From a virus: a stretch of DNA of 41,560 nt. The notes below the pieces were generated by a model that was not told the DNA's origin, searched no databases, and saw only the letters and a list, made by a program, of their open reading frames with translations. Every line of letters starts with the position of its first letter. The first letter of the stretch is position 1. Below are positions 10,115-33,595 of the stretch, piece after piece. The stretch covers positions 1-41,560 of the IMG/VR virus record IMGVR_UViG_3300025151_000093; one strand, written 5' to 3'. A program made the translations under genes and the position numbers.

Positions 10115-10290
10115 GATGGGGGAGCCCTCAAGTCAATTTTCAAAACTGGTTTTAGAATGGGAGTGGGAGATATATGGTAAACCCACCTCCCCACGTAATG
10201 TTGTCTAGGGGGGGACTTCAGGTTGAAACTTTTCGTTTCAACAGACTGTAGCCTCCCCAGCTCAGCCAACATTAGTGGCTCCCTTGCCAT
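10115..10290 (+). promoter_or_regulatory. Hairpin-rich leader of the rightward early operon
   Basis: This stretch is more G/C-rich than its surroundings and has no convincing gene. It contains a perfect 8-bp hairpin GTTGAAAC-TTTTC-GTTTCAAC (10222-10242). A 9-bp stem with one bulge pairs GGGAGTGGG (10159-10167) with CCCACCTCCC (10182-10191). A long-range GGGAGCC/GGCTCCC pair (10120-10126 with 10277-10283) could close the whole structure. A structured 5' leader, operator site or separate RNA are all possible. I could not identify a consensus promoter with confidence. Confidence 0.5.
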
Positions 10291-10324
10291 AGGTGGACAT
10301 AATAAATAATAAAGGAGAATAATT

Positions 10325-10648
10325 ATGGACATTAGAATTAGTGGTAAGGGTCGTAATGGTATTGAGGTACAGAATCAGAATACAAAGGGAGATATTATTC
10401 CTCTTTCTGATTATAGCTCGGATGAATTAGAGGCCATGATTGATAGCTCTACTCACGTGACTATTTATCTTAAGGATGATACTCGTGTAGATGATGCTAA
10501 GGGCATATTGACTGAATTCTTTAGCCATTACAAAGGCAGAATGGAGTCTTTTGCTACGGAGTATGGTTGGTATGTAGGTCAGAGTTTGGTTGCTCCAAAG
10601 GATGATTCGACTGCCTTTGATAAGCTCCGTCAATCCAAGGCTGTTTAG
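10325..10648 (+). CDS. Hypothetical early protein
   Basis: A 107-residue protein, first gene of the rightward operon, with a strong AAAGGAG site before the ATG. Predicted make-up: two short strands (MDIRISGKGRNGIEVQ), a 'SDYSSDELEAMIDSSTHVTIYL' helix-strand unit, then a helical second half. No cysteine or nuclease motif is present. The immediate-early position is where phages often place host-takeover or anti-defence proteins, but nothing in the sequence proves that here. Confidence 0.7.
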   Translation: MDIRISGKGRNGIEVQNQNTKGDIIPLSDYSSDELEAMIDSSTHVTIYLKDDTRVDDAKGILTEFFSHYKGRMESFATEYGWYVGQSLVAPKDDSTAFDKLRQSKAV

Positions 10649-10658
10649 TCTGTTTAAT

Positions 10659-10708
10659 AATGCTTGTGTGTCCTACATAAGCATTTAATCCTTGCACTAA
10701 AAAAGTGC
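10659..10708 (+). other. Two hairpins between early genes
   Basis: AATGCTT (10659-10665) pairs with AAGCATT (10679-10685). GCACT (10694-10698) pairs with AGTGC (10704-10708) around a five-A loop. They fill the gap between the first two early genes. No U-run follows the second hairpin, so a simple terminator is not obvious. RNA processing or a small structured RNA is possible. Confidence 0.45.
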
Positions 10709-10736
10709 CGAACATTAAATAAGAAGGGAGTCAATC

Positions 10737-10874
10737 ATGAGATTGCAAGCTGTAACTGAGAGGTATTGGATATTTGAAAACTTCTTTGGTGGATTTGTTG
10801 AAGTTAAACGTTCTAAGCATCCTGAGCTTTTTCAAGCTAAGATAGAGGCTAGACGTATTACCACAGGTGGATAA
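10737..10874 (+). CDS. Small hypothetical early protein (45 aa)
   Basis: The reading frame gives MRLQAVTERYWIFENFFGGF and ends ARRITTGG. A good AAGGGAG site lies about seven bases upstream of the ATG. The protein is basic with several aromatic residues. It is too short for domain assignment and I do not recognise it. It directly precedes the long RNA-like region. Confidence 0.6.
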   Translation: MRLQAVTERYWIFENFFGGFVEVKRSKHPELFQAKIEARRITTGG

Positions 10875-10965
10875 GTTCTTTGGGTTTTTAGAGAACGTTT
10901 TACTTGCTGGTGTTTGCCTTTATGGGCTTTATATTGTGGTACGATTGTATATGATGATGATATGA
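10867..10965 (+). CDS. Possible 32-aa membrane peptide (GTG start)
   Basis: A GTG-started frame overlaps the end of the 45-residue gene. It encodes MDKFFGFLENVLLAGVCLYG followed by LYIVVRLYMMMI, a single clear hydrophobic segment. The overlap, charged start and hydrophobic core suggest a real mini-membrane protein, but the ribosome binding site is weak and nothing else supports it. Confidence 0.35.
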   Translation: MDKFFGFLENVLLAGVCLYGLYIVVRLYMMMI

Positions 10966-10973
10966 TTTATATC

Positions 10974-11053
10974 TTAAGGCCTGGCTAGTGATAGTGCGTT
11001 GCACTTGTTTAAATATGGAGAGAGAGACCATAGCTATCACAGCCTTGCCTTAA
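10974..11053 (+). ncRNA. Three-way-junction unit 1 of the RNA region
   Basis: Perfect stem TTAAGGC (10974-10980) with GCCTTAA (11047-11053). A 2x2 internal loop follows, then GGCT/AGCC, a bulged A, and GTGATAG (10988-10994) with CTATCAC (11034-11040). Inside are a TGC-GTT-GCA-type hairpin (10994-11004) and TATGG (11014-11018) with CCATA (11028-11032) around a purine loop AGAGAGAGA. Eighteen closing base pairs with only small interruptions are very unlikely by chance. Confidence 0.65.
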
Positions 11054-11071
11054 AAACGTTTGTTACTAACC

Positions 11072-11200
11072 TTTACCCTGTCTATAGACTGATAAGTATT
11101 ATTTCACAAGAACTCCTTGTTAAGATATGTGGTATGTCATATGTAAGAATATAATACTTGTCTGGCTTCTATACTGTCTTGATGTCAGACGCAGGGTAAA
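11072..11200 (+). ncRNA. Multibranched RNA unit 2 (family A, copy 1)
   Basis: Closing stem TTTACCCTG (11072-11080) with CAGGGTAAA (11192-11200), nine perfect pairs. A second nine-pair stem AAGTATTAT (11094-11102) with ATAATACTT (11151-11159) encloses two hairpins: ACAAG-AACTC-CTTGT (11106-11120) and ATATG...CATAT (11125-11142). A third hairpin, GTCTG (11160-11164) with CAGAC (11186-11190), abuts the 3' closing strand. The same plan recurs at 12672-12807. Confidence 0.65.
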
Positions 11201-11409
11201 TATTTGTATACAAGTGCTGTGAATTAGACAATATGGTTCGCTACCTAATGAAACGTGGATATTATAAGTGATAAACTTCATTGTCACCACGAACATGGCA
11301 CATAAAAGATTTATCATAAGAGATTTAAAAGGGAGAGTAAATGATTTACGAGTATTAAGAGGGATTACGCACGCTGGCCCCTATAGAGCCAATATGTAAT
11401 AATGTCTAA

Positions 11410-11497
11410 CAGTATTTATAACTTTTTCCAGATAGGAGTATCTGTAATAGTTATTTGCAGATGGTCGATTTGTAGATAGCGTAAAGTTATAGTATTG
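11410..11497 (+). ncRNA. Long stem unit 4 of the RNA region
   Basis: CAGTAT plus TATAACTTT (11410-11425, one bulged T) pairs with AAAGTTATA plus GTATTG (11483-11497). That is 15 pairs including two wobbles. It encloses the hairpin CAGATA-GGAG-TATCTG (11429-11444) and a second, weaker one, CAGAT-GGTCG-ATTTG (11458-11472). An alternative outer pairing TTACGC (11365-11370) with GCGTAA (11479-11484) competes with it. Confidence 0.55.
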
Positions 11498-11684
11498 CAA
11501 CCAAAAGACTCACATCAAGGGTATGATTGATGTTTTGGGTTATTATATAGCGTGTCGAAATAATTTGTAAGAAAATGATAATTAGCGAGTAAATAAAGAA
11601 TTGAACAACTTAAGAAGCCAGACTAGGTCGTAGATAATAGAACAATTATCGAAAGCTGGGGTTGAAGGCTATGTACACACAAGT

Positions 11685-11754
11685 CCTATGTTATGTTAGC
11701 AACATACACAATTGTCTTCGCTAAACAGTTGTGGGAGAGAATTCTCAACATAGG
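11685..11754 (+). ncRNA. Cloverleaf-like four-way-junction RNA unit
   Basis: P1 is CCTATGTT (11685-11692) with AACATAGG (11747-11754). P2 is ATGTT-AGC-AACAT (11693-11705). P3 is CACAATTGT (11707-11715) with ACAGTTGTG (11725-11733) around a nine-base loop. P4 is GAGA-GAAT-TCTC (11735-11746). Linkers are zero or one base, giving a compact four-way junction. It is not a tRNA: there is no TTC-type T-loop, no D-loop GG and no seven-base anticodon loop. Confidence 0.6.
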
Positions 11755-11802
11755 CAATAACTTAAAACCTGTTAATAATTATATAATAAAAAGGAAAATT
11801 AA

Positions 11803-12204
11803 ATGAGTAAATATGTTTGGTATGAACATATAGTATGTATGGATGGCTATACTTTATCTGTACAAGCTGGTGAAGGATTTTATTGTGAACCTAAAGAAAG
11901 CCCTTACGATGAAAAAGGAAGATGGAGAAAAGATTTTGGTTATAAATCTGTTGAAATAATGATTAAAAGCAAGTATTGGGATGAGCCTTTATTTGATAAA
12001 TATACTAGTAAAGGTTGTCATAACTGCGGTAGTGATAGACAAGGATATGCTGAATTGAATGACCCATTAGAATACGTTCCTGTTGAGGTACTTGCAAGAG
12101 TAATTAAAAAACACGGAGGTGTCATACAAGGTGCGATACCTCCATTTCATAAAGAATGGAAAAAAAAATTCTATCAAAACTTAAAAAAGGAAGACAATGA
12201 TTAA
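11803..12204 (+). CDS. Hypothetical protein with one CxxC pair
   Basis: A 133-residue protein with an AAAAGGAAAA site upstream, first coding gene after the RNA region. It contains one 'GCHNCGSDRQGY' cysteine pair (about residues 67-75) and a basic C-terminal tail (HKEWKKKFYQNLKKED). The N-terminal half is rich in aromatic residues and could be a small beta fold. The single CxxC might bind zinc with His or Cys from elsewhere in the chain. I do not recognise the family. Confidence 0.7.
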   Translation: MSKYVWYEHIVCMDGYTLSVQAGEGFYCEPKESPYDEKGRWRKDFGYKSVEIMIKSKYWDEPLFDKYTSKGCHNCGSDRQGYAELNDPLEYVPVEVLARVIKKHGGVIQGAIPPFHKEWKKKFYQNLKKEDND

Positions 12205-12657: not shown

Positions 12658-12671
12658 TAAAAATATAATTA

Positions 12672-12807
12672 TTTCCCCTCCTACCATATATCCCTGTAAA
12701 ACTAAAACTAGACTTCAGGTTATACTTAGTAATCTATGTATTCCAAGAGTTTATAATGGATTAGTATGGGACGTTGGTACAGTCTGTGACAGTCAGACGA
12801 GGGGAAA
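12672..12807 (+). ncRNA. Multibranched RNA, family A copy 2
   Basis: Closing stem TTTCCCCTC (12672-12680) with GAGGGGAAA (12799-12807), nine perfect pairs. Inside are CCATA (12684-12688) with TATGG (12765-12769), sub-hairpins CCTG/CAGG (12693-12719) and TAATC/GATTA (12730-12763), and a final GTCTG-TGACAGT-CAGAC hairpin (12782-12798) abutting the 3' strand. Relative to 11072-11200, the closing stem differs at two pairs, both compensatory (A-T to C-G, G-C to C-G), and the 3' hairpin is the same. The region is followed by TTTAAATAAAAT. Confidence 0.65.
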
Positions 12808-12915
12808 ATTTTTAAATAAAATGAGAAAGTCAAGTCAGTCTAATATCTCCTGCGACTAATACACCTTATGGTATAACCAATCGGTCACTATTAGCGTATA
12901 CAGTTAAGATATAAA
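12808..12915. other. Gap with weak structure between RNA and gene
   Basis: No convincing gene. It holds an AT-rich TTTAAATAAAAT (12811-12822). A possible small stem pairs CTAATA (12840-12845) with TATTAG (12889-12894) around an ACC-TTAT-GGT hairpin. It may carry a promoter or a small RNA, or may simply be leader for the following gene. Confidence 0.35.
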
Positions 12916-13161
12916 ATGACTGGCTTGGCAATATTTATGAGTATAATAACAGAAAACGATATAATAGTAGATGGTATGGCTGAAAATGCTTTCCCATTTC
13001 TAGATTGTATTTTTGAGGATATTGGTTGGTCTTTACAAGTAGTTGGTGTTCGGCTATTAATGGAAGAACTTAATTGTCCTCGTAACATAGCTAAGCGTTT
13101 ATTAGACGCTTGGTGTATTAAAAAGGATATTGAATGGCGGAAACAGGACTTATTCTGCTAA
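12916..13161 (+). CDS. Small hypothetical protein
   Basis: An 81-residue protein, or 74 residues if the second ATG at 12937 is used. Neither start has a strong ribosome binding site. It is rich in Ile, Asp and Glu with a central 'IFEDIGWSLQVVGVRLLMEEL' helix-like stretch and 'CPRNIAKRLLDAW', which could be a short helix-turn-helix-like unit. Family unknown. It overlaps the following mini-gene. Confidence 0.5.
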   Translation: MTGLAIFMSIITENDIIVDGMAENAFPFLDCIFEDIGWSLQVVGVRLLMEELNCPRNIAKRLLDAWCIKKDIEWRKQDLFC

Positions 13162-22350: not shown

Positions 22351-24087
22351 TTACTTTTCTTCCCTTTCTGGCAATACTGTTGCAGGAACTATGCCTAGTT
22401 GCCAATTTTTTCTTAGTTTTTGTTGCCATTTAGGTGATAATGACTTCATTGTGTAATCTAAATACTTAGAATCTAAAACGCCTAATCCCATATTCTCTCT
22501 AATTGGGTCTATCAAACCCCTAGCTCTTCTTAATCTATTCATCATATCTACATTAGTCTTATAATTCATCCATGCTGAAGCACCTGCTTTATGTATTCCA
22601 GGCCCCATACTGAACATTTCTTGATACCCCATAGGAGGGCCAGAATCGAAATTAGGGTCATTGTAACCTAGCGTTCTTATTGGTTTCTCATCTAATCTAA
22701 CATCGCTGTGTAATCCAGCACCCCTATCCCAAGCTTTTGCAACAGCTTCATTTTTAATTCCATATTTTCTTATTTCATTTTGTGGTGGAACAGGATAACC
22801 AAGAGTTCTATGCAACTCCCTTATTCTTTCAATGTTATTACCAATAGTCATATTTTTATAATAAGTATCATTACCCATTGCTTCCATATCTTTCAATCTT
22901 TCTGGTATTGCTCTTGCTCCATGTGTTTTACTGGGATTTCCTGTTAAATCCCAAATTCTAAGTCCCCCTCCTGTTTGTCCTATTTTATAATACCTATCTG
23001 GGTTCTCTCTTGAAACTCTCTCAATAGCATCTATTGCTTCACCTGGGCTATTATATTTTATCTGCATAGCGTCAGAAAAATGTTCTCCTTTAAATCCACT
23101 TGGAGTACCTAAATCTATATCATGCATTAATCCTTTTTGAGAAAGGTATTGCAATTGATTTTTAGTATTTTTTTTATCTACTACATTTCTAAAACCACCC
23201 ATTCCTCTTATTTGACCTAAGTGATAATCCATTGGTATGTTGTCACCTAGTTTATCTACAAACCAAGGATAGTCATCACCTTGACTTTCTAAGCGTTTTA
23301 AAAAATCACTATGGTCAATAACTTCAGGTGTTTTTGTAAGTGGATTATAAACGACCTGCTTATCAAACCCTGCTAAATTACGAGCTTTCATTTGTGCATC
23401 ATCTAAAGCTTTTTTGGATACTAATTGCTTAGGAGTTAAAGTTAATTTTTTCTTAGTATCTTTTATTGTTCCTTTAAATAAGTCAAAATTACGTGGAGTA
23501 CTTGAAACTACTGTATGTCTAGGTATATTTACATTTCGAGGCTTTACAGAAACGTTATTATAATATTCATATTCTTTTGGAACATATGCTAATGATGCAT
23601 TTTCTGCTGGCATAACTTTTTTAGGTGTACTTAAAACTGCTCCACCTAATAACCCAAGTATTGGATTATTCATAGCCACAGCATCTGTAGCAACACTTGC
23701 TACTGCACCACTAGGCGAAGGATATACTTCTGTGGGAATTAACCCTTCTTGCAATGGAACAAGATTACCATATTCGTCAAAGGCAGTACTTCTGCCTGTG
23801 GTATTGTTAGATATATAATTTTTAGGTTCTTGCGGTGAGTCATATAAGGGATTGTGGTCAATACGTTTACCTTTCGACTTAAATTTCACACCAATACTTT
23901 TAAGTAAATCTCTGTAGTATTTTGCTTCTTTAAGATTCATTGGTCCAGTATCTATTAAAGCACTTTCCAGTTTGTCAATGAAACTAGGCTTATATTGCTT
24001 TGTGCTAGAGCTATTGTCAGTATGTGTTGGGAGATTTTGCACTACTTTAGTAGAGCTTGGCGTTACTGTATTAAATTGATTCTTCAT
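22351..24087 (-). CDS. Large protein of unknown function downstream of the giant gene (putative virion protein)
   Basis: A 578-residue protein overlapping the giant gene by 17 bases, so the two are probably made together. The N-terminal 200 residues are low in structure, with a Gly/Ala/Val-rich hydrophobic patch 'AVAMNNPILGLLGGAVLSTP' (about residues 135-155). The C-terminal two thirds mix charged helices with motifs such as 'GGGLRIWDLTGNPSKTHGAR' and 'SMGPGIHKAGASAWMNYKTN'. I do not recognise it. Position and make-up suggest an internal or ejected partner of the giant protein. Confidence 0.6.
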   Translation of the reverse strand: MKNQFNTVTPSSTKVVQNLPTHTDNSSSTKQYKPSFIDKLESALIDTGPMNLKEAKYYRDLLKSIGVKFKSKGKRIDHNPLYDSPQEPKNYISNNTTGRSTAFDEYGNLVPLQEGLIPTEVYPSPSGAVASVATDAVAMNNPILGLLGGAVLSTPKKVMPAENASLAYVPKEYEYYNNVSVKPRNVNIPRHTVVSSTPRNFDLFKGTIKDTKKKLTLTPKQLVSKKALDDAQMKARNLAGFDKQVVYNPLTKTPEVIDHSDFLKRLESQGDDYPWFVDKLGDNIPMDYHLGQIRGMGGFRNVVDKKNTKNQLQYLSQKGLMHDIDLGTPSGFKGEHFSDAMQIKYNSPGEAIDAIERVSRENPDRYYKIGQTGGGLRIWDLTGNPSKTHGARAIPERLKDMEAMGNDTYYKNMTIGNNIERIRELHRTLGYPVPPQNEIRKYGIKNEAVAKAWDRGAGLHSDVRLDEKPIRTLGYNDPNFDSGPPMGYQEMFSMGPGIHKAGASAWMNYKTNVDMMNRLRRARGLIDPIRENMGLGVLDSKYLDYTMKSLSPKWQQKLRKNWQLGIVPATVLPEREEK

Positions 24088-27000
24088 CGTTTTTCTTCCT
24101 TATCATAGTTCCTAGTTTATGGACAGGAATTCCAAACATAAATTCAGCAGTCATTTCTGGCCTTTCTAATGTCATTATGGTACTTCGTGCTAATCTACCA
24201 AATGGTAGCATTGTCCAAGTATAGTAGTTTGCCCATCGTTCCCATTCTCCGTTTATCATTGCAGTCATTAATGGCATCCAATATCTATGTATAGGAGCAG
24301 TTGCTACTTGCAATGGTGCTAATATTGGAGAAGGATAAGCACTAAAAAACGCTCTTTCTCTTTCAGTTTTATCTCCAAATATCCAATCAGCAGTATCTTG
24401 TACATAAGACATTGGAGGAGGAAGAATGCTATCAAATAAAGAGCCAACAAAAACTTGAGCCAATGCAAAGGTAGATAAATCCATAATAGTTAATCTTTTT
24501 AGCCTATCCATAGATTTCTTATCATTAAAGCCATATATTTTTGCTTGTTTATAAATATCTCTTCTAAAACGAATTGAATTCCACATAAAAGGCTGGAATC
24601 TTGTAAACACTTTTCCCATTGTAGAGCGAGAAACTGCTGGTCTATTAACGTTGTGATATAAAAACTGAGTAGCTTCTACCCCTTTTAATGCCATTCCTGT
24701 TAAATAAGGATGGTCAAAAGGCATATTAGGTATTATTTGACCTAGTGCTTCTCTTGCGTTTAAATAATGTGCTAAAAAAGCATCTGTACGCAAAGTTCTT
24801 TCTGACGCTCTCATAAACCAACCACCAGCAGATAATATAGAATCTGTTACTTGATATTTCTTAGCTAACTCCATTACTGTAGCATCAGTAACATCTCTTT
24901 TAGAAAAAACTTCTTTAAAGAATGGCTTTAGCTTTTTCACATCTAATCTTTTGTCCATCATAGCTTCATTGATATAGAAAGATTCTAATGCACCAATTTC
25001 AGCCACCCATCTATGTATGGTATTTCTATCAGTAATAGGCGTTCCGTCTTTTAACTTTGCTCCAGAAAATACATTACTAACTAACCATTTTACATCTCTT
25101 GCTCTTTTAAATTTGTTAATACCCATATTAGTGATAGTATTAGAACTACCACCTACTACGTTTCCTAAATATGTTTTAGGGTGAGCAAGTAGAGATATAA
25201 GAGATAATTTTGACTCATAAGCACCTATGTTATTTAGTATCTGATACAAGACTTGTTGTCTTGCTTTTTCAGACGTAGGTAACTCCATTCCAAATAACTT
25301 TGGAGCTTTAGGTGTTCCATGAAATTTCTTACTGACTCCTGGGATTGCCCATTTGTTTAATTGCTGTGATTTAGCATCTAGGTACTCTACCATATTTTGG
25401 TCAGATAATCGATATTCTAAATTTTGCAATGGATTAAATAAAGAGGTTCTAGTGCCATAATGTTTTTTTATTTTATTGTCTCTTTCAATTTTTCTTTTAT
25501 CCCATTCTTTTTGTATACCTTCTGGGGATTGTTTTATTTTTTGTTTAAGCTTTGCTCTTTCTGCAATAGTTAGGCCAGTATACTTTGTAGGTAATGCATT
25601 AGGTTTACCCATTAAACTACTAGCATACCTCCTCATTTCTTTAGCCCACATTTCTCCCATTTCAGGATTTTCTTTAACAAAAACATTATTTTGTTCGTAA
25701 TTATTAATAACCTTACGAAATGTCAACGCATTCATATTTTTAAATAAAGCACTTACCCATTGATTTGTATAAGATTCTAAGACTTCAAATCCATAACTAA
25801 AGTAAGGTACATGAGTATCGCCTCTTTGTCTTCCAGTCCCAGGTCTATATTCAGCGTTAATATCTTGCCATTGTTCTTTTCCCTTACGGAATTCAGCGTT
25901 TAGAAAATTTACAAGATAGTCAGATTGACCTGTGGCGTTTTCTACTCTCTGTCCAAGGTATAATTGATAGTCAGCATTTTGGCTTGCTAATTTAAGGTTT
26001 ATTAGATGTTCTTTTATTTTATTCCCAGATACACCCCATATACTTTGCTGTTGTTTAATAGGCATTTTGCCTGTAATTGCTTCTAGTTCTAGTTCTTTAA
26101 ATTGATAACGTCTAGGTATTTTATAAGCAGAGTCTTCTTTAACAGTTTTACCACCTTGAGTAAGGTCATTTACATAGTTTTCTAACTTAGCCTTAAGCCT
26201 TAATTGTTGTTCCTGCACCCAAGGTCTTAATTTTTTAGTATCGTGATGCATCTGAGGAAAGTATTCTGTATTAAACCCTTCTTTTCCTTCATTTCCTATT
26301 CTTCCTATACCAAAAAATTTATTAGCCTTTCTCCATTCTACTCTAATATTTTTAGCTTCTTCAGAATTAGATTTAATTTTTTTACTAAGTATATGTTCTT
26401 CTAATCCAATTTCATATTGTACTCTATTTAGTAATTCAGTACCCATAGGATTATTGCGATTTCCTAGCATTTTATGTAATGCATTAACACCGAATGTTTC
26501 AGCATTATCCATTACTTTTTTCTGGAAATTTTCTAAATCAAATCGCCCATTCTTATTGTAACGTATAAAATCATGTATAAGTAATCCATTTTTAGCCCAT
26601 TCTATATTTTCATCAATTCGTTTCCAGTCTATGCGTTCCCATTCACCATATTTATCTACAACTCCAGCACCTAAATAGCTTTCAAAAAAATTCTTTAAAA
26701 ACTCTCCTTGCTGTTCTTGTATATCTTTAATTATTTCTTCAGATGTTTTTTCAACAACTTTACCATTTCTAGTAATTTTAAACTTTTTTCCTTTATATTT
26801 ACTTTCCCATAATTTCAATGTTGAAGACCATTCTTGTTCATAAAAAGAAACATCTTCAGGTTTCCAAGCTCTATCACGATTCATTTTTTTTTGAGCAAAC
26901 ATAAATAAATCAGTAAATGTTTGAATACCATTTGGTATGGCCTCAAGTTCAGATTTAACACTTATCCCATTAAATAAAGACTCTACCATACTATTTTTAA

Positions 27001-30000
27001 TAGAGTCTTCCAGCTCTCTCATTTGTCCACCAACTTTTTGTATAAATGACATAGAAGATAATGGCACTTTTATAGTCGCTAAACCCATGTCTTTGGCATT
27101 ACGTACAGGAGTTTTCATTTTAAACAACAAATCAAGGTCATGCCCAGCTTGTTTTTTACCTACTGTATCTGGAAATAAAAAATCATATATCTTTTTTACT
27201 TTGCCAGTTGGATTAGTAGAATTAACCATTTCTTTTAAAAATCGGTTAAAATTTCTAACATCTTCCCATGTTGCCATTTTGATACTTGTTGGACCATCAC
27301 CTTGTACTGACTTCATATAAGTATATAAATCTTCAAATCTTAAAGTAGCACCATCAGGTAATGTTTTTAAACTCTGAGTAATACTTCGCAATACTTGAGG
27401 TATATCACTAGGTATGTCTCCAAAATGAGCTAGATATAAGTTATCAACTTCTCCTTCTGCTTTTTTTGCAATTTCAAGACCACCTAACTTATCTGGTTTA
27501 AATAATCTGTCTATTTCAACGTCAGCAATTCTTTCTGCGTCAATATTGCTTTCAATTTCTCCTAGCTTAGTGTCTTTTTTTGACTTTAATAAATAATTTG
27601 TAACTTCTCCAGTTATTTTATCTGTAGTAACAGAATTAAGTAAATCAAAAGTATCAGCATACCCTTTCATAAATTGAGCTTTTACTCTGTCAGGTATCGC
27701 ATCCATTGACCAGATAAATCGAGGTGTGCTGGTATTTTCGTATTGACTCCTAATACGCTCTTTTTCTGCTTTTAGTATTTCTACTGTATCTGTTTGACCT
27801 CTTTTTTCTGCTGTTGCTATTCTACCATTAAGGTTTCTAATTATTCCTTCTAGTCGAACTGGCTGTGGGCGTAAACTGCTCAATAAGTAATTGTAATAAT
27901 AATCAATTGCAACTTCAGGCTTTATTTTTAATTCTTTAGCTATTTTACTTATTTCAACTACGTCTTTTCTAATAAGCTTATTGGCTTCTTGCTCATTTTC
28001 AAACACTCTTTGGTTTTCATTTCTAAAAGTGTGGTTAAATTGTATTTTTACAGCCTCCGCTTGCCTTGCTATTATATCCCTTAGAATTAGAAATTTGCTT
28101 TCAGAAGCTGTCTTCGGTTGCTTGCCAGCTTGTATATCGTCTACTGCTTTTTGAATCTGTTTTGACCATTTTTCATTTTCCAGTATTTCAATATTATTAC
28201 CAGTAATTTGTTCGCCATTAACTATTCGATTAGCAATTTCATTTATACGTTCATAAGGTACTTGACCTTTTTTCTCAGTATACCCTGCATTTATTAATGC
28301 TTTATCTAATAACCTTCCTTTAGAATTAAGTTGTAAGGCACTCCATATGTCATAAGAATCATTTATTTTATATTCTTTTTCAACTCTAGCACTATATCTA
28401 GAAATAGGTTTTGTTGTAACCCCTGGCTCCATTCTTTCGTTGGTAAATAAATTGTTGAATGTTTTTTGTACGCTACTGCCAAATTCTCCTAACCTTTCTT
28501 CCAAAGGAGTTTTACCTTCTTTGTTTGGAGGCTCTAAAGCTTCCCATAAAAACTCCCTATATGGTTCCTTATCTTTTTTAGTAGCTCCTTTATCTGGTAC
28601 TTCGCTTAGCTTTTTTCCACTTTTAGTAGTGAAATCAGAGTGTTTTAACATTGCCTTGTATACCGCTTTATAGTCAATATGATAATACAAAGGCATTATT
28701 CTGAGGTTTTTTCTAGTAATATAATTAAGTACGTCTTTATCTCTTAATAACTCCCTACTTAATAGTCGTATAGATTCTCTGTATGTTTCGTAATTAAAAT
28801 GCCTTAATGGGTCAATGTTCATTTCGTTTTGTGATATTTTATGGGCAATATCAACGATAGAACTCATTGTTTTTGGTTCACCTTGAAATGGCCTTGTTGC
28901 TTCTTGTATTTCGGATATGCTAAATGCTCTGTTGTTTTCATAATCATATCCATAAAGCTTTCTATTCAATTCGTGAAGGTGTTTATATTCTAAAGTATTT
29001 TTAAGGTCCTGTAATGTGCCTTCCCTTGGCTTAGCTCTTGTATCTTTAGGAATAAACGTAAGTTTTTCAAAAGCAGATTGAGTAACAATTTGTATTAATT
29101 CTTGAGGGTTAGCCATATTATAATAATTAGCACTATCTGCTGTTCTACTATGTGCTTCTGTGGCTACTACATAATACCCATCGTCTTTATATAATTGCTT
29201 TTCACTAGTTTTTCCTACAAGCGTACCTATTATTTTTGTTTTTCCTTCTTTATTCTCCCTATAAACATCAATGCTTAATTTGCCTTCTTTATTAGTAATA
29301 ACATCTGCTAAAACATTTTGTAGAAATGATTTTGCATTAACAATTCTTTCTAAGCCTTTTTTTCCTTCATAGGCACTCATTCCTGTCTTACGTAAAGAAC
29401 CTGGAGACCATTGCCCTAAAGGATTGTTATTTACAAAATCCGAATCTTCTTTAGAGACTTCACTTTTAAACAGCTTATTCATCTTTTCTGCCTTATTCTC
29501 AAAGAAAATACTTTTACTTTTATTTCCTACTTTTTTTGCTCTTTCTAAAAAATCGTCATTTTTGACTAAATCATTTATGTATTTTTCAGGTAAACCCTGA
29601 TAAAAGAACACTTTATCACCATCTACGTCTGCACCGTCTATGTAAAAGTGGTCTCTACCCCTCATGTAAACACCCCAATCAGCTAAATCAACATCGTTTT
29701 TTACAAAGCCATCAAATAATAGGCCTCTTGTACCTGAAATAGCATTAGCTGGAACTCTCATAACTGCAAACATCAGTTTTCCTCTCATCCTTGCTTTTAC
29801 GTGAGGGTCTTTTTCAGCCTTAAATTCTTTCCAAGCGTCTTCTAATTTTATTTCGTTATCTGTTCCTAACCATTTTACTTTCATTTTCCTATGGCTATTC
29901 CCAATTTTAAAATGCCCAACTTTTCTTTTTATAAGCTTACCATCTTCAAAAAATTCATATGTTGTATTCTTTTTAATACCGCCAGTTATAGATTCCATTA

Positions 30001-33000
30001 CTGGGTCTACCCCAGCTACCCAACCACTTCCAGAGTTTTTCCACTCAGGGTTGGTAAATTTATTCATACGATAAATATGAACTGATTTTTCATATAGACT
30101 ATTATTTATTACAGCAGATACAGCATTATAACCAGTACTTCGGTACCATCGTTCAAAATTATTAGCATATTCTCTTAGCTCCTCATATACAGTACCTTCA
30201 AATTCTTCTGTCTTTTCCATATCTTTAATCTTTTTAAAGATTTCGAGGTTTAATTCTTTATGTAATTTGTGATTTGTATCATTTATAACTGTAATAAAGT
30301 CTTTATCTCCAAGCTCTGATACTTTAAAACCTTTAGGTGGTAATGCATCAGGATTATCCTTTAAAGATTTCATATAGTTACTTGCAACTTCAGAGCCATT
30401 AATTACATCATAATGAATTGCATCCATAAAATCTCGATAACCTTGATTGCTCATTGTTAGCTTATCGAAAAAAGAATGCATTTGTTTTTTTATAGTAGTA
30501 GGCTTTGCTGAGTGTTTGTCTCCGTATACACCAAAGCTTATCCTAAAATCTTCAATATTCATCTCTAAAGAAGGTTTATCGTAGCCTTTTATTTCGTATT
30601 TACCATTCTTCTTAGCCTGACCTTTATAAACCTTTGTCCCTTTTGGCATAGCTTTAATTGCAGAAGTCACTACTATCATTGAATTTTTACTAGGCATTGC
30701 ATCGTTGTACGCTTTAGCCCCAGGATGAACTCCTCCTTTTATTAAGAACAGACTCCCATCTGGCATTGTAACTGCTACTGCTGGCTTCATATGGGACATT
30801 TCAGTCCCCTTAAATCCATTTGCTTCCATAAATCTTTTATATAAATCAGAATGCATAACTAACCAACCATCAATCTTACTTTCCCACGCTTGCTCAATTA
30901 CTTTTCCATTTTTATCTACTGTCCAAAATGTTTCAGGCTTTTTGCCTTCTACGTTTAGCCATTGCCCAATCCTTTTACCAGTACTACTGAGTTTACCTAA
31001 TAAATTTGCCTCAGCTTCTATAGCTATAATGTTTATTTTATCAGTACCACCAGTTAAGTCTTTGAAAAACTTTCTATCTTGTTCGTAAAATGACTTAGAT
31101 GACAATAATGCTTCACGCTTAACTCGAGCTATTGCACTTTTAAAATTCCAGTTTTTTTCGTATAAATAATTAGACTTAAATGCTTTATTGTATAGATTAC
31201 GTAATCCTTGACTTTTAATAAGATTTGCATCTTTTTTTAGATTATAACCCATGGTTTCAAGCCATATATTAAAATCTTTTTCTATGTATTTATTAAGTAG
31301 GTCTTTAGTAATAACCTTAAGGTCGGCATTATCTACAACTTCTTTGACAATAGTTTTTAATTCAATTTTATTCGTTTCAGGATGATATTCATAGATTCTT
31401 TCTACGCCATTATCTTTTTTAGGTATTTTAAGGTATTGATTTTTTTTGTTTAAATTTTCAGTAATACGAAACCAGTCTCCTTTCGACATAACCATTTCGT
31501 ATTCTTTTGTACTACTATTCCAAACTTTTTCGTATGGCTTTAACGTAACGTATGAATTACCACGTTGGTCAACAACTTCTGAGAATTCTCTTACAGTAAC
31601 CTCATCCCCCCAAATTTTTTCATGTATTTTTTCATCAGAAGACCTTGGTTCACGACCTGTTATCTTTTTCTTTATAGCATTAAAACCCCATATCATTTTT
31701 GTTTTCTTATCCGTTTTGTTAAAACTAATAACAGGTCTTATAATGCCTTGCGATAACCTTGTAAACATTTGAGTTAAACTGTTTTCCATTTCAGAAGTAA
31801 TTCTAATGCCAGGGAACTTATCTTGAACAATTTTTATATACTCCTGCACCATACCTTTTACAGGGATAAATCGTGTATCTTGCTTACCAGCTTCAGTTCT
31901 AGGTATTAATTCATTATATGTTTTAACTGCGTGTTCTAATACATCGTTTTTGTCGTAAATATCTGTTTGTTTTTGTAGCTGATTAAGAAAACGCTTTATA
32001 ACTGGTTCAACTACAAGTTCAGGTTGGTCTGATATTATAGTTTCCTCTGCTTTTAGTATATCTTGTGCAGTTGTTTCTATTTTTTCTTGAGGTATATTTT
32101 CAAAATATTCTATAATTCTTTTTTCTAATGGCTCTACATAGCCTTCTTTAACTTCAGAAAGTTCTTCAGGAGTAAGTTTATCTACTATTTTCTGCTGACT
32201 ATCTTCTAGTTTTTCTTTAGGGTCACGTATTTTTTTCAATAAACCTTCAGTTATAATCCTAAGATTTAAGTCTTTTGCATATTGTTTAGGCACTACTTCC
32301 ATTAGCTCAGCTTGTACTTGAGCAATCTCAAAAGGCTCTAAATCTTCGGTCTTTTTATTAACCTCCTGTGCTTTTCTTTCTAATGCTTCATTGTATGGCT
32401 TTAATATTTCTCTTGATAGTATAACACTAGGCAAAGAATCATCTGTTTGAAGAGCTTCTCCTTTAAATCTATCCCAAAAGTCTCCAATGTAATTCGTGTA
32501 CTTTTCTCTTACCATTTCTTGAGATTCTAAAGGAAGTTCCTTGAATTCTTTTGACTCAAGCATATTCCTTCTTTCTGTAAAATCTTTTTGGAACCCACCT
32601 TCTTCATTTCTTTTTTCGTAACTATTAAAAAACTCAGATGCTTTCTTTTCTCTTACTCCATGAGCACCATACCCAAAAAAAGCACCTAAGGAATATTCAT
32701 AAATTTGAGTAGCAGTTGGTGCACCTTGCATAGTAGCCATTCCGCCTTGAAAAATAGAGCCTAATGCACCTCTAAATATTTGACCTCTGTTATTATATAA
32801 CGTTTCTGAAAATTGCTTTGAATGCTCCCAAAGCTTACGTTTCCCAACTTCTCTTACAACCTTATTAGGATGTTGTACCATGTTACCAACACGTACAAAG
32901 TTTCCTAAACCTCCAAAAAATCCTCCAGCTACAGCACCAAATATTAAATTATCTACTTCATTATCCTCACCATCCCACATCCCACTTACAGCACTTGCTA

Positions 33001-33595
33001 CGGATAAATGCTGTGCTTGATATGCGACATCAACCATCTTTGCTTTAAACCCAATTTTTGAACCTGCTTCAAGATATTTACCAGCTTCAAATCCAGCATT
33101 TGCTAAAATCTTTTTTGTAGCGTCTACAGCTTTATCACCTACAAATAAAGGTACAGATTTACCTTTTTTTGCAAATTCACCAAAACCACGTATCGTTTTG
33201 CCTGTAGTTTGGAACGCTCTAGAAACTTTTCCAGCTCCACCAAGCCCAAGCTTTGCTATACCAGTACCAGTAATTGAAACAAGTCCACCAAACATAGGCA
33301 AAGCAAAACCTAATAAATGCCCTGCACTATGGGCAAGAGATTGAAATTCGTCTTGAGGGTCTTCAGACCAGCCCCCCATAGCAATAGGGCCAAGTAAACC
33401 TTCTGTAAATCCAGAACTAAACTGAGATAATATATTGCTTTGTTTAGAATCTGAGGTTTCTTCTATTGGTTGGTCTTCTTGAACAAGACCATACAACTTT
33501 GAAAATCGCTCTAATTCCCTTGCTTCTTCTTGGGTGAAGTTTTCAGGTCTAAAGCGGTATCTTTTTAGTTTTTCCCTAGTTTGGAATGGGTTCAT
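24071..33595 (-). CDS. Giant polyvalent protein with putative DPBB RNA polymerase core
   Basis: A 3,174-residue protein. Residues about 50-310 are Gly/Ala-rich and hydrophobic (ejection or pore-like). Residues about 905-1045 hold 'KIDGWLVM' (D909) and Lys-rich strands ending 'NIEDFRISF...KKQMH', comparable to the first barrel of single-chain RNA polymerases. Residues 1279-1330 hold 'MRVPANAISGTRG' then 'YIDGADVDGDKVFFY', with D1323, D1325 and D1327 as the DxDGD metal triad of the second barrel. Long coiled regions follow. Residues about 2760-3174 form a helix-rich domain with hydrophobic stretches ('LSTFALAQVFVGSLFDSILP'), like the C-terminal domains of phage polyvalent proteins. No T7-type polymerase motif is seen. 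I infer a virion-carried RNA polymerase. Confidence 0.7.
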   Translation of the reverse strand: MNPFQTREKLKRYRFRPENFTQEEARELERFSKLYGLVQEDQPIEETSDSKQSNILSQFSSGFTEGLLGPIAMGGWSEDPQDEFQSLAHSAGHLLGFALPMFGGLVSITGTGIAKLGLGGAGKVSRAFQTTGKTIRGFGEFAKKGKSVPLFVGDKAVDATKKILANAGFEAGKYLEAGSKIGFKAKMVDVAYQAQHLSVASAVSGMWDGEDNEVDNLIFGAVAGGFFGGLGNFVRVGNMVQHPNKVVREVGKRKLWEHSKQFSETLYNNRGQIFRGALGSIFQGGMATMQGAPTATQIYEYSLGAFFGYGAHGVREKKASEFFNSYEKRNEEGGFQKDFTERRNMLESKEFKELPLESQEMVREKYTNYIGDFWDRFKGEALQTDDSLPSVILSREILKPYNEALERKAQEVNKKTEDLEPFEIAQVQAELMEVVPKQYAKDLNLRIITEGLLKKIRDPKEKLEDSQQKIVDKLTPEELSEVKEGYVEPLEKRIIEYFENIPQEKIETTAQDILKAEETIISDQPELVVEPVIKRFLNQLQKQTDIYDKNDVLEHAVKTYNELIPRTEAGKQDTRFIPVKGMVQEYIKIVQDKFPGIRITSEMENSLTQMFTRLSQGIIRPVISFNKTDKKTKMIWGFNAIKKKITGREPRSSDEKIHEKIWGDEVTVREFSEVVDQRGNSYVTLKPYEKVWNSSTKEYEMVMSKGDWFRITENLNKKNQYLKIPKKDNGVERIYEYHPETNKIELKTIVKEVVDNADLKVITKDLLNKYIEKDFNIWLETMGYNLKKDANLIKSQGLRNLYNKAFKSNYLYEKNWNFKSAIARVKREALLSSKSFYEQDRKFFKDLTGGTDKINIIAIEAEANLLGKLSSTGKRIGQWLNVEGKKPETFWTVDKNGKVIEQAWESKIDGWLVMHSDLYKRFMEANGFKGTEMSHMKPAVAVTMPDGSLFLIKGGVHPGAKAYNDAMPSKNSMIVVTSAIKAMPKGTKVYKGQAKKNGKYEIKGYDKPSLEMNIEDFRISFGVYGDKHSAKPTTIKKQMHSFFDKLTMSNQGYRDFMDAIHYDVINGSEVASNYMKSLKDNPDALPPKGFKVSELGDKDFITVINDTNHKLHKELNLEIFKKIKDMEKTEEFEGTVYEELREYANNFERWYRSTGYNAVSAVINNSLYEKSVHIYRMNKFTNPEWKNSGSGWVAGVDPVMESITGGIKKNTTYEFFEDGKLIKRKVGHFKIGNSHRKMKVKWLGTDNEIKLEDAWKEFKAEKDPHVKARMRGKLMFAVMRVPANAISGTRGLLFDGFVKNDVDLADWGVYMRGRDHFYIDGADVDGDKVFFYQGLPEKYINDLVKNDDFLERAKKVGNKSKSIFFENKAEKMNKLFKSEVSKEDSDFVNNNPLGQWSPGSLRKTGMSAYEGKKGLERIVNAKSFLQNVLADVITNKEGKLSIDVYRENKEGKTKIIGTLVGKTSEKQLYKDDGYYVVATEAHSRTADSANYYNMANPQELIQIVTQSAFEKLTFIPKDTRAKPREGTLQDLKNTLEYKHLHELNRKLYGYDYENNRAFSISEIQEATRPFQGEPKTMSSIVDIAHKISQNEMNIDPLRHFNYETYRESIRLLSRELLRDKDVLNYITRKNLRIMPLYYHIDYKAVYKAMLKHSDFTTKSGKKLSEVPDKGATKKDKEPYREFLWEALEPPNKEGKTPLEERLGEFGSSVQKTFNNLFTNERMEPGVTTKPISRYSARVEKEYKINDSYDIWSALQLNSKGRLLDKALINAGYTEKKGQVPYERINEIANRIVNGEQITGNNIEILENEKWSKQIQKAVDDIQAGKQPKTASESKFLILRDIIARQAEAVKIQFNHTFRNENQRVFENEQEANKLIRKDVVEISKIAKELKIKPEVAIDYYYNYLLSSLRPQPVRLEGIIRNLNGRIATAEKRGQTDTVEILKAEKERIRSQYENTSTPRFIWSMDAIPDRVKAQFMKGYADTFDLLNSVTTDKITGEVTNYLLKSKKDTKLGEIESNIDAERIADVEIDRLFKPDKLGGLEIAKKAEGEVDNLYLAHFGDIPSDIPQVLRSITQSLKTLPDGATLRFEDLYTYMKSVQGDGPTSIKMATWEDVRNFNRFLKEMVNSTNPTGKVKKIYDFLFPDTVGKKQAGHDLDLLFKMKTPVRNAKDMGLATIKVPLSSMSFIQKVGGQMRELEDSIKNSMVESLFNGISVKSELEAIPNGIQTFTDLFMFAQKKMNRDRAWKPEDVSFYEQEWSSTLKLWESKYKGKKFKITRNGKVVEKTSEEIIKDIQEQQGEFLKNFFESYLGAGVVDKYGEWERIDWKRIDENIEWAKNGLLIHDFIRYNKNGRFDLENFQKKVMDNAETFGVNALHKMLGNRNNPMGTELLNRVQYEIGLEEHILSKKIKSNSEEAKNIRVEWRKANKFFGIGRIGNEGKEGFNTEYFPQMHHDTKKLRPWVQEQQLRLKAKLENYVNDLTQGGKTVKEDSAYKIPRRYQFKELELEAITGKMPIKQQQSIWGVSGNKIKEHLINLKLASQNADYQLYLGQRVENATGQSDYLVNFLNAEFRKGKEQWQDINAEYRPGTGRQRGDTHVPYFSYGFEVLESYTNQWVSALFKNMNALTFRKVINNYEQNNVFVKENPEMGEMWAKEMRRYASSLMGKPNALPTKYTGLTIAERAKLKQKIKQSPEGIQKEWDKRKIERDNKIKKHYGTRTSLFNPLQNLEYRLSDQNMVEYLDAKSQQLNKWAIPGVSKKFHGTPKAPKLFGMELPTSEKARQQVLYQILNNIGAYESKLSLISLLAHPKTYLGNVVGGSSNTITNMGINKFKRARDVKWLVSNVFSGAKLKDGTPITDRNTIHRWVAEIGALESFYINEAMMDKRLDVKKLKPFFKEVFSKRDVTDATVMELAKKYQVTDSILSAGGWFMRASERTLRTDAFLAHYLNAREALGQIIPNMPFDHPYLTGMALKGVEATQFLYHNVNRPAVSRSTMGKVFTRFQPFMWNSIRFRRDIYKQAKIYGFNDKKSMDRLKRLTIMDLSTFALAQVFVGSLFDSILPPPMSYVQDTADWIFGDKTERERAFFSAYPSPILAPLQVATAPIHRYWMPLMTAMINGEWERWANYYTWTMLPFGRLARSTIMTLERPEMTAEFMFGIPVHKLGTMIRKKNDEESI

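Follow-up and report, generated by a model that had tools for sequence, protein, structure and literature searches.

Coding content and folding energy of the region

The window analyzed here is the whole stretch of 41,560 nt (IMG/VR record IMGVR_UViG_3300025151_000093, positions 1 to 41,560). Codon-usage scoring, with long ORFs from the same phage group as the training set, placed its longest non-coding stretch at 10825-11870. Within 10974-11754 the only ORFs were of 51 aa on the plus strand and 65 aa on the minus strand, which agrees with an earlier sequence-only reading that had found no gene there, and in homologues the reading frames were broken by compensatory changes and indels. The same reading had described a non-coding, structured, phage-encoded element in an early-gene region, and this description was supported. 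Structured RNA was indeed located between the limits that it had set, 10974 and 11754, but a second cluster lay outside them, at 12672-12926. Elsewhere in the window, 24071-33595 on the minus strand encodes a protein of 3174 aa, for which no Pfam family scored above the curated cut-off. The units discussed below were as follows.

E1, 10974-11053, plus strand: three-way-junction-like unit with the closing stem TTAAGGC/GCCTTAA
E2, 11072-11200, plus strand: conserved class, with compensated pairs and model matches
E2 stem P1, 11072-11080/11192-11200, plus strand
E2 base of P2, 11083-11088/11168-11173, plus strand: carries the variable P2 extension
E2 stem P3, 11176-11179/11187-11190, plus strand
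E3, 11204-11301, plus strand: conserved class
E3 palindrome, 11204-11213, plus strand
E3 closing stem P1, 11214-11221/11294-11301, plus strand: six of eight pairs compensated
E3 conserved core, GAAACGTGGATATT..GTCACCACGAA, plus strand
E4, 11305-11404, no strand assigned: unstructured spacer (z +1.8)
E5, 11410-11497, plus strand: closing stem around two hairpins
E6, 11501-11538, plus strand: one hairpin (z -1.4, not significant)
E7 5' segment, 11564-11593, plus strand: TTTGTAAGAAAATGATAATTAGCGAGTAAA, conserved and in the same order in contigs L002 and L099
E8, 11616-11670, plus strand: insertion that splits E7 in two
E7 core, 11685-11754, plus strand: four-way junction with the loop CTTCGCTAA
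E2', about 12672-12807, plus strand: diverged second copy of E2 (model match 37.9 bits, E 4e-7)
E10, 12832-12926, plus strand: immediately 3' of E2', with the core ATCTCCTGCGACT..AGCGTATACAGTTAAGAT

The folding energy of the whole region was moderately better than that of shuffles (z -2.5 to -3.1). Of 53 blocks of this size (781 nt) from the same window, 8 had values of -3.0 or lower, and the mean z of fixed 130-nt windows was -0.33 in the region and -0.46 in the entire window. The claim that inverted repeats were far denser here than in AT-rich spacer DNA was therefore not upheld, and folding energy, ordinary in fixed windows and unexceptional among 781-nt blocks, was discarded as proof of structure. 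Folded in register, E1 (z -4.0), E2 (-3.7), E5 (-5.2), and the E7 core (-3.3) were significant against shuffles and E3 (-2.1) was borderline; these scores are optimistic because the unit boundaries were picked on stems. The z-scores of 11499-11540 and of the undivided segment 11558-11760 were not significant. The earlier observation was therefore correct in part, on grounds weaker than had been supposed. The argument from folding energy is weak and the evolutionary evidence is strong: what decided the matter was covariation, which is invisible in the single sequence.

Covariation in E2, E3, and other modules

A pattern scan of IMG/VR detected seven stretches with E2, and RNAalifold found nine compensated pairs among seven sequences. 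A core alignment of 11 sequences, ten of them distinct, was also made, from which the variable P2 extension was removed by hand. Double changes were present in 11 of its 17 pairs, a count biased towards this structure because the sequences were cut by hand and joined along the fold, and 92.9% of cells were paired; the RNAalifold result is independent of this alignment. The covariation score of the core alignment was 0.573, while that of slid controls did not exceed 0.224. The variants of P2 were UAUGGA/UCCAUA, UAUAGA/UCUAUA, UACCA/UGGUA, UACAAA/UUUGUA, and UACCCU/AGGGUA. Model R3 matched a diverged E2 immediately after E3 in L085 as well as E2' in the window, at 12665-12824. E2' had homologues in L005 and L007, and sequence comparison brought in L077, L049, and L002 as well.

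The scan for E3 yielded 15 stretches. In all, E3 was present in 17 contigs, the window included. Among 14 aligned sequences, six pairs of the 8-bp closing stem were altered on both sides with all cells paired, and compensatory changes were present in 6 of 17 core pairs. The covariation score was 0.331, compared with 0.084 or less in slid controls. Stem P3 never varied, and support for P2 was weak. The G-U pairs of E3 fit only the plus strand and so fix its orientation. The core GAAACGUGGAUAUU..GUCACCACGAA was invariant across the 14 sequences, which is partly an artefact of selection because the scan pattern included part of it; the pattern did not include the covarying stem, and in L067 the model detected a divergent member whose core is not an exact match (45.7 bits). 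The segment 5' of P1 was palindromic despite turnover of its sequence (TTGTATACAA, TTGGTACCAA, TGGTACCA, and TGTTATAACA); the palindrome was lost in L093 and L096. The 39 E3 pattern matches in GTDB genomes were rejected as chance, with a top model score of 23 bits, as were the new matches from a relaxed viral scan, none of which received a model score; E3 therefore appears to be confined to these phages.

Both E2 and E3 are structured RNA classes, with covariation beyond relatedness and occurrence in several contexts. The ordinary folding energy in fixed windows, and the unconvincing E4, E6, and undivided 11558-11760, would fit inverted repeats that arose by chance in AT-rich spacer DNA and give no RNA. 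That reading is extremely unlikely: it is contradicted for E2 and E3, whose covariation was far beyond that of shuffled and slid controls, and G-U pairs were restricted to one strand. For E1, E5, and E6 it may hold. Since the shapes of the modules are conserved in evolution, the modules are real and probably of use to the phage.

The covariation in homologues that the sequence-only reading had called for was present in E2 and E3, and the E7 core was weakly supported by it, with four compensated pairs and 26 of 26 pairs kept in three close sequences. The sequence TTAGCGAG, at 11582-11589 in the E7 5' segment, may pair with the E7 loop CTTCGCTAA in a pseudoknot, as suggested by complementarity rather than by covariation. 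Pattern matches to E7 in L098 and L100-L102 were judged to be chance. E8 was missing from E7 in L002 and L099. Its homologue in L105 (12339-12429) stood alone and was internally duplicated, and inspection showed one compensatory change. The motif GACUAGG..GAAA is common to E8 and E3, but the covariance model gave no support for E8 as a member of E3.

Homologues of E1, E5, and E6 were not found among the related loci compared, while E10 recurred in six contigs (L048, L038, L035, L061, L077, and L091). In the E4 spacer, a mini-ORF ATGATTTACGAGTATTAA follows AGGGAGAG at 11330-11355 and may be due to chance. Relatives of the phage contained further elements. The element M_d was present in eight contigs, with four compensated pairs; its hammerhead-like core CUGAUGA..GAAA in L067 was dismissed, as it was not conserved among the other members. 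The GACCGAAGTATGA element was present in five contigs and had 10 pairs with double changes, yet its covariation term was zero. In L085, a tandem element was duplicated at 71%. In the related phage L023 (about 7080-7010, minus strand), a sequence resembling a tRNA, with the anticodon CAT, was recognized by eye beside structured elements.

Shuffling of modules among related phages

The comparison set consisted of about 100 IMG/VR phage contigs. A search with the terminase gene gave 80 related contigs from an uncultured phage group, and deposited relatives were remote, all below 60% identity and at 23-27% among the matches listed. Judging by some of the closest phages in culture and by IMG sample numbers, the phage is probably marine. 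Many of the terminase relatives had a non-coding stretch of 600-1400 nt, located about equally far from the terminase. The search for related loci with a 133-aa neighbor protein gave one contig, L148, without these modules, and that with a 107-aa neighbor protein gave no match. No DNA similar to the region or its modules was found by blastn in 50,697 deposited phage genomes.

In sensitive blastn and motif scans, parts of the region turned up again, and never the whole: E7 in L002 and L099, E3 in L059 and L035, and E2 in L099. The region splits into modules of about 55-150 nt, which were found elsewhere with other neighbors in the following orders.

Window: E1-E2-E3-(E4)-E5-E6-E7[E8], genes, E2'-E10
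L085: two tandem elements, E3, E2
L105: E8, gene, E2
L099: E7, gene, E2
L093: E9, E3, gene
L048: E10, M_d

A lone E2 was located 5' of differing genes in L099 and L103-L108, and the gene that separates two elements in L002 was absent from L099. By inspection, what lay after E2 or E3 varied among L099, L103, L105, L085, L093, and L087, so control of one particular gene seems unlikely. The locus is an array of independent cassettes and not one molecule. About 800 nt of non-coding DNA in L067 (6600-7460, minus strand), parts of which recurred separately in at least 10 other contigs, is a second clear mosaic case.

Known RNA families and possible modes of action

The whole window was compared with the 4227 families of Rfam release 15, and no match was obtained at the gathering score; 10600-12000 gave no credible match at E up to 10, and eight related loci gave none at the gathering score. 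The window contained no tRNA genes, as had been stated earlier, and the Rfam results support the earlier suggestion of a new class. In the titles and abstracts listed by searches of the open-access literature, no array like this was described, and the nearest ideas seen there were GOLLD/ROOL/OLE, the put RNA, and a phiKZ non-coding RNA. The last is an abundant RNA of about 100 nt, intergenic between PHIKZ298 and PHIKZ297 (PMC8545117). It is likened here by description only, and it differs in coming from a jumbo Pseudomonas phage with no array reported.

The region had been read as a 780-nt ornate RNA region resembling GOLLD and ROOL. Like GOLLD, it is phage-encoded, non-coding, structured, and about 800 nt in size, and it shares the first three properties with ROOL; its size and phage origin would therefore suit a large multidomain ornate RNA that forms a multimeric assembly. 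The E3 palindrome kept through sequence change, as for a dimer contact, would suit it too, and so would complementarity between the E2 apical loop ACUCCU (11098-11150) and the E5 hairpin loop AGGAGU (11425-11440), which is exact. These loops may kiss or may match by chance, the match being a single observation. However, neither the GOLLD nor the ROOL covariance model matched, and no tRNA is near, whereas GOLLD is often near tRNA genes. GOLLD is one RNA whose 3' domain is conserved and which forms a multimeric RNA-only nanocage, and ROOL, about 660 nt in length, is a single molecule that assembles into a nanocage (PMC12286853) and has a conserved overall secondary structure; here the modules are separate and reordered, and some occur alone. 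The unstructured gap E4, the insertion of E8 within E7, and the loss of the palindrome in L093 and L096 also argue against a single molecule, which we regard as very unlikely. The region 10974-11754 is thus real structured RNA, though not a single GOLLD- or ROOL-like one. The sequence ACUCC was present in several E2 apical loops; a general anti-Shine-Dalgarno role for such loops was rejected, since ACTCC was seen 20 times against 18.75 expected in 60 array strands.

Self-cleaving ribozymes or other catalytic RNAs were also considered. The compact junctions, invariant cores, and variable stems of E2 and E3 are what such RNAs would have, and cleavage within the operon would release the modules. 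None of the Rfam ribozyme families matched, either in the window at the gathering score or in 10600-12000 at E up to 10, and the hammerhead-like sequence of M_d was not conserved, so we consider catalysis quite unlikely.

The main rival, because E2 is often just 5' of a start codon, is that the modules are cis-acting intercistronic elements of an early polycistronic mRNA, such as antiterminators, processing or stability elements, or translation controls. Precedents are the HK022 put RNA, which binds RNA polymerase and thereby suppresses pausing and termination, and the RNase III sites of T7 early mRNA. The modules are on the same strand as the genes. In L099, L103, L105, and L085, a ribosome-binding site and an ATG came immediately after E2, and in L093 immediately after E3. 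On the other hand, up to seven different elements stood in tandem with no gene between them, the neighboring genes were not conserved, a scan for terminator-like sites found none inside the array to act upon, and the invariant cores are more complex than simple processing hairpins. At about 70 nt, the HK022 put RNAs are located downstream of early promoters in a phage early operon (PMC9378689). By description only, E2 and E3 resemble them as compact structured RNAs of an early operon, and a mode of action may be shared; the put RNA consists of two stem-loops near promoters, whereas E2 and E3 are junction RNAs, and several classes occur in tandem. Taken together, a cis-acting role is possible but somewhat unlikely.

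The explanation that we favor, tentatively and with a little less than even confidence, is an array of separate trans-acting structured RNAs for host takeover or counter-defence in an early accessory locus. The locus would be hypervariable and hold a series of compact structured RNAs that belong to several unrelated classes, share the orientation of the adjacent early genes, and behave as cassettes that can be gained, lost, duplicated, or reordered. Each module would be a small structured RNA that acts alone and has a conserved core for binding (or catalysis), and recognition would not be via the variable peripheral stems. Working in trans early in infection, the modules might serve as decoys or regulators that bind host factors, and counter-defence may be their purpose; both the action in trans and the involvement of host factors are conjectural. 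The tandem runs without intervening genes, which mRNA control would not need, favor independent RNAs, while the frequent position of E2 just 5' of a start codon is that expected of cis elements and, together with the lack of homologue support for E1, E5, and E6, speaks against them. A more specific form, in which RNAs take the place of protein genes and the cassettes are an exchangeable repertoire of many unrelated small RNAs, like the anti-defence genes of other phages, each RNA blocks or hijacks a host factor of its own, and some form homodimers through palindromic ends, seems unlikely to us.

Few structured RNAs of phages have a known role. Two well-supported new classes, E2 and E3, are described here, with E7, E8, E10, M_d, the GACCGAAGTATGA element, and the L085 tandem element as further candidates in mosaic cassettes. 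Orphan phage RNAs are already known; to our knowledge, an array in which several unrelated classes are shuffled is new. Should the modules act in trans, then RNAs, like small proteins, would be exchanged among phages as tools for taking over the host early in infection or for countering its defences. With folds based on covariation, this idea can be tested one module at a time.

We infer that the modules are transcribed together with the early operon, from an upstream region conserved in about 50 loci. The intergenic DNA with the widest conservation in the group (family 0, 51 members) is at 10130-10200 of the window, sits between divergent gene blocks, and contains TTTTCAAAA and TAGAATG; it is probably the promoter/operator of the early operon. 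Conserved DNA at 10130-10295 was rejected as an additional RNA because it had no consensus structure. A recurring 30-nt promoter-like motif, TTGTAAGAAAAT..ACAGTATAT, was observed upstream of elements or genes in L059 (7540), L023 (about 7480), and L033 (about 5850, minus strand). The copy in the window, at 11564-11593, is a variant, and TTAGCGAG within it resembles the motif.
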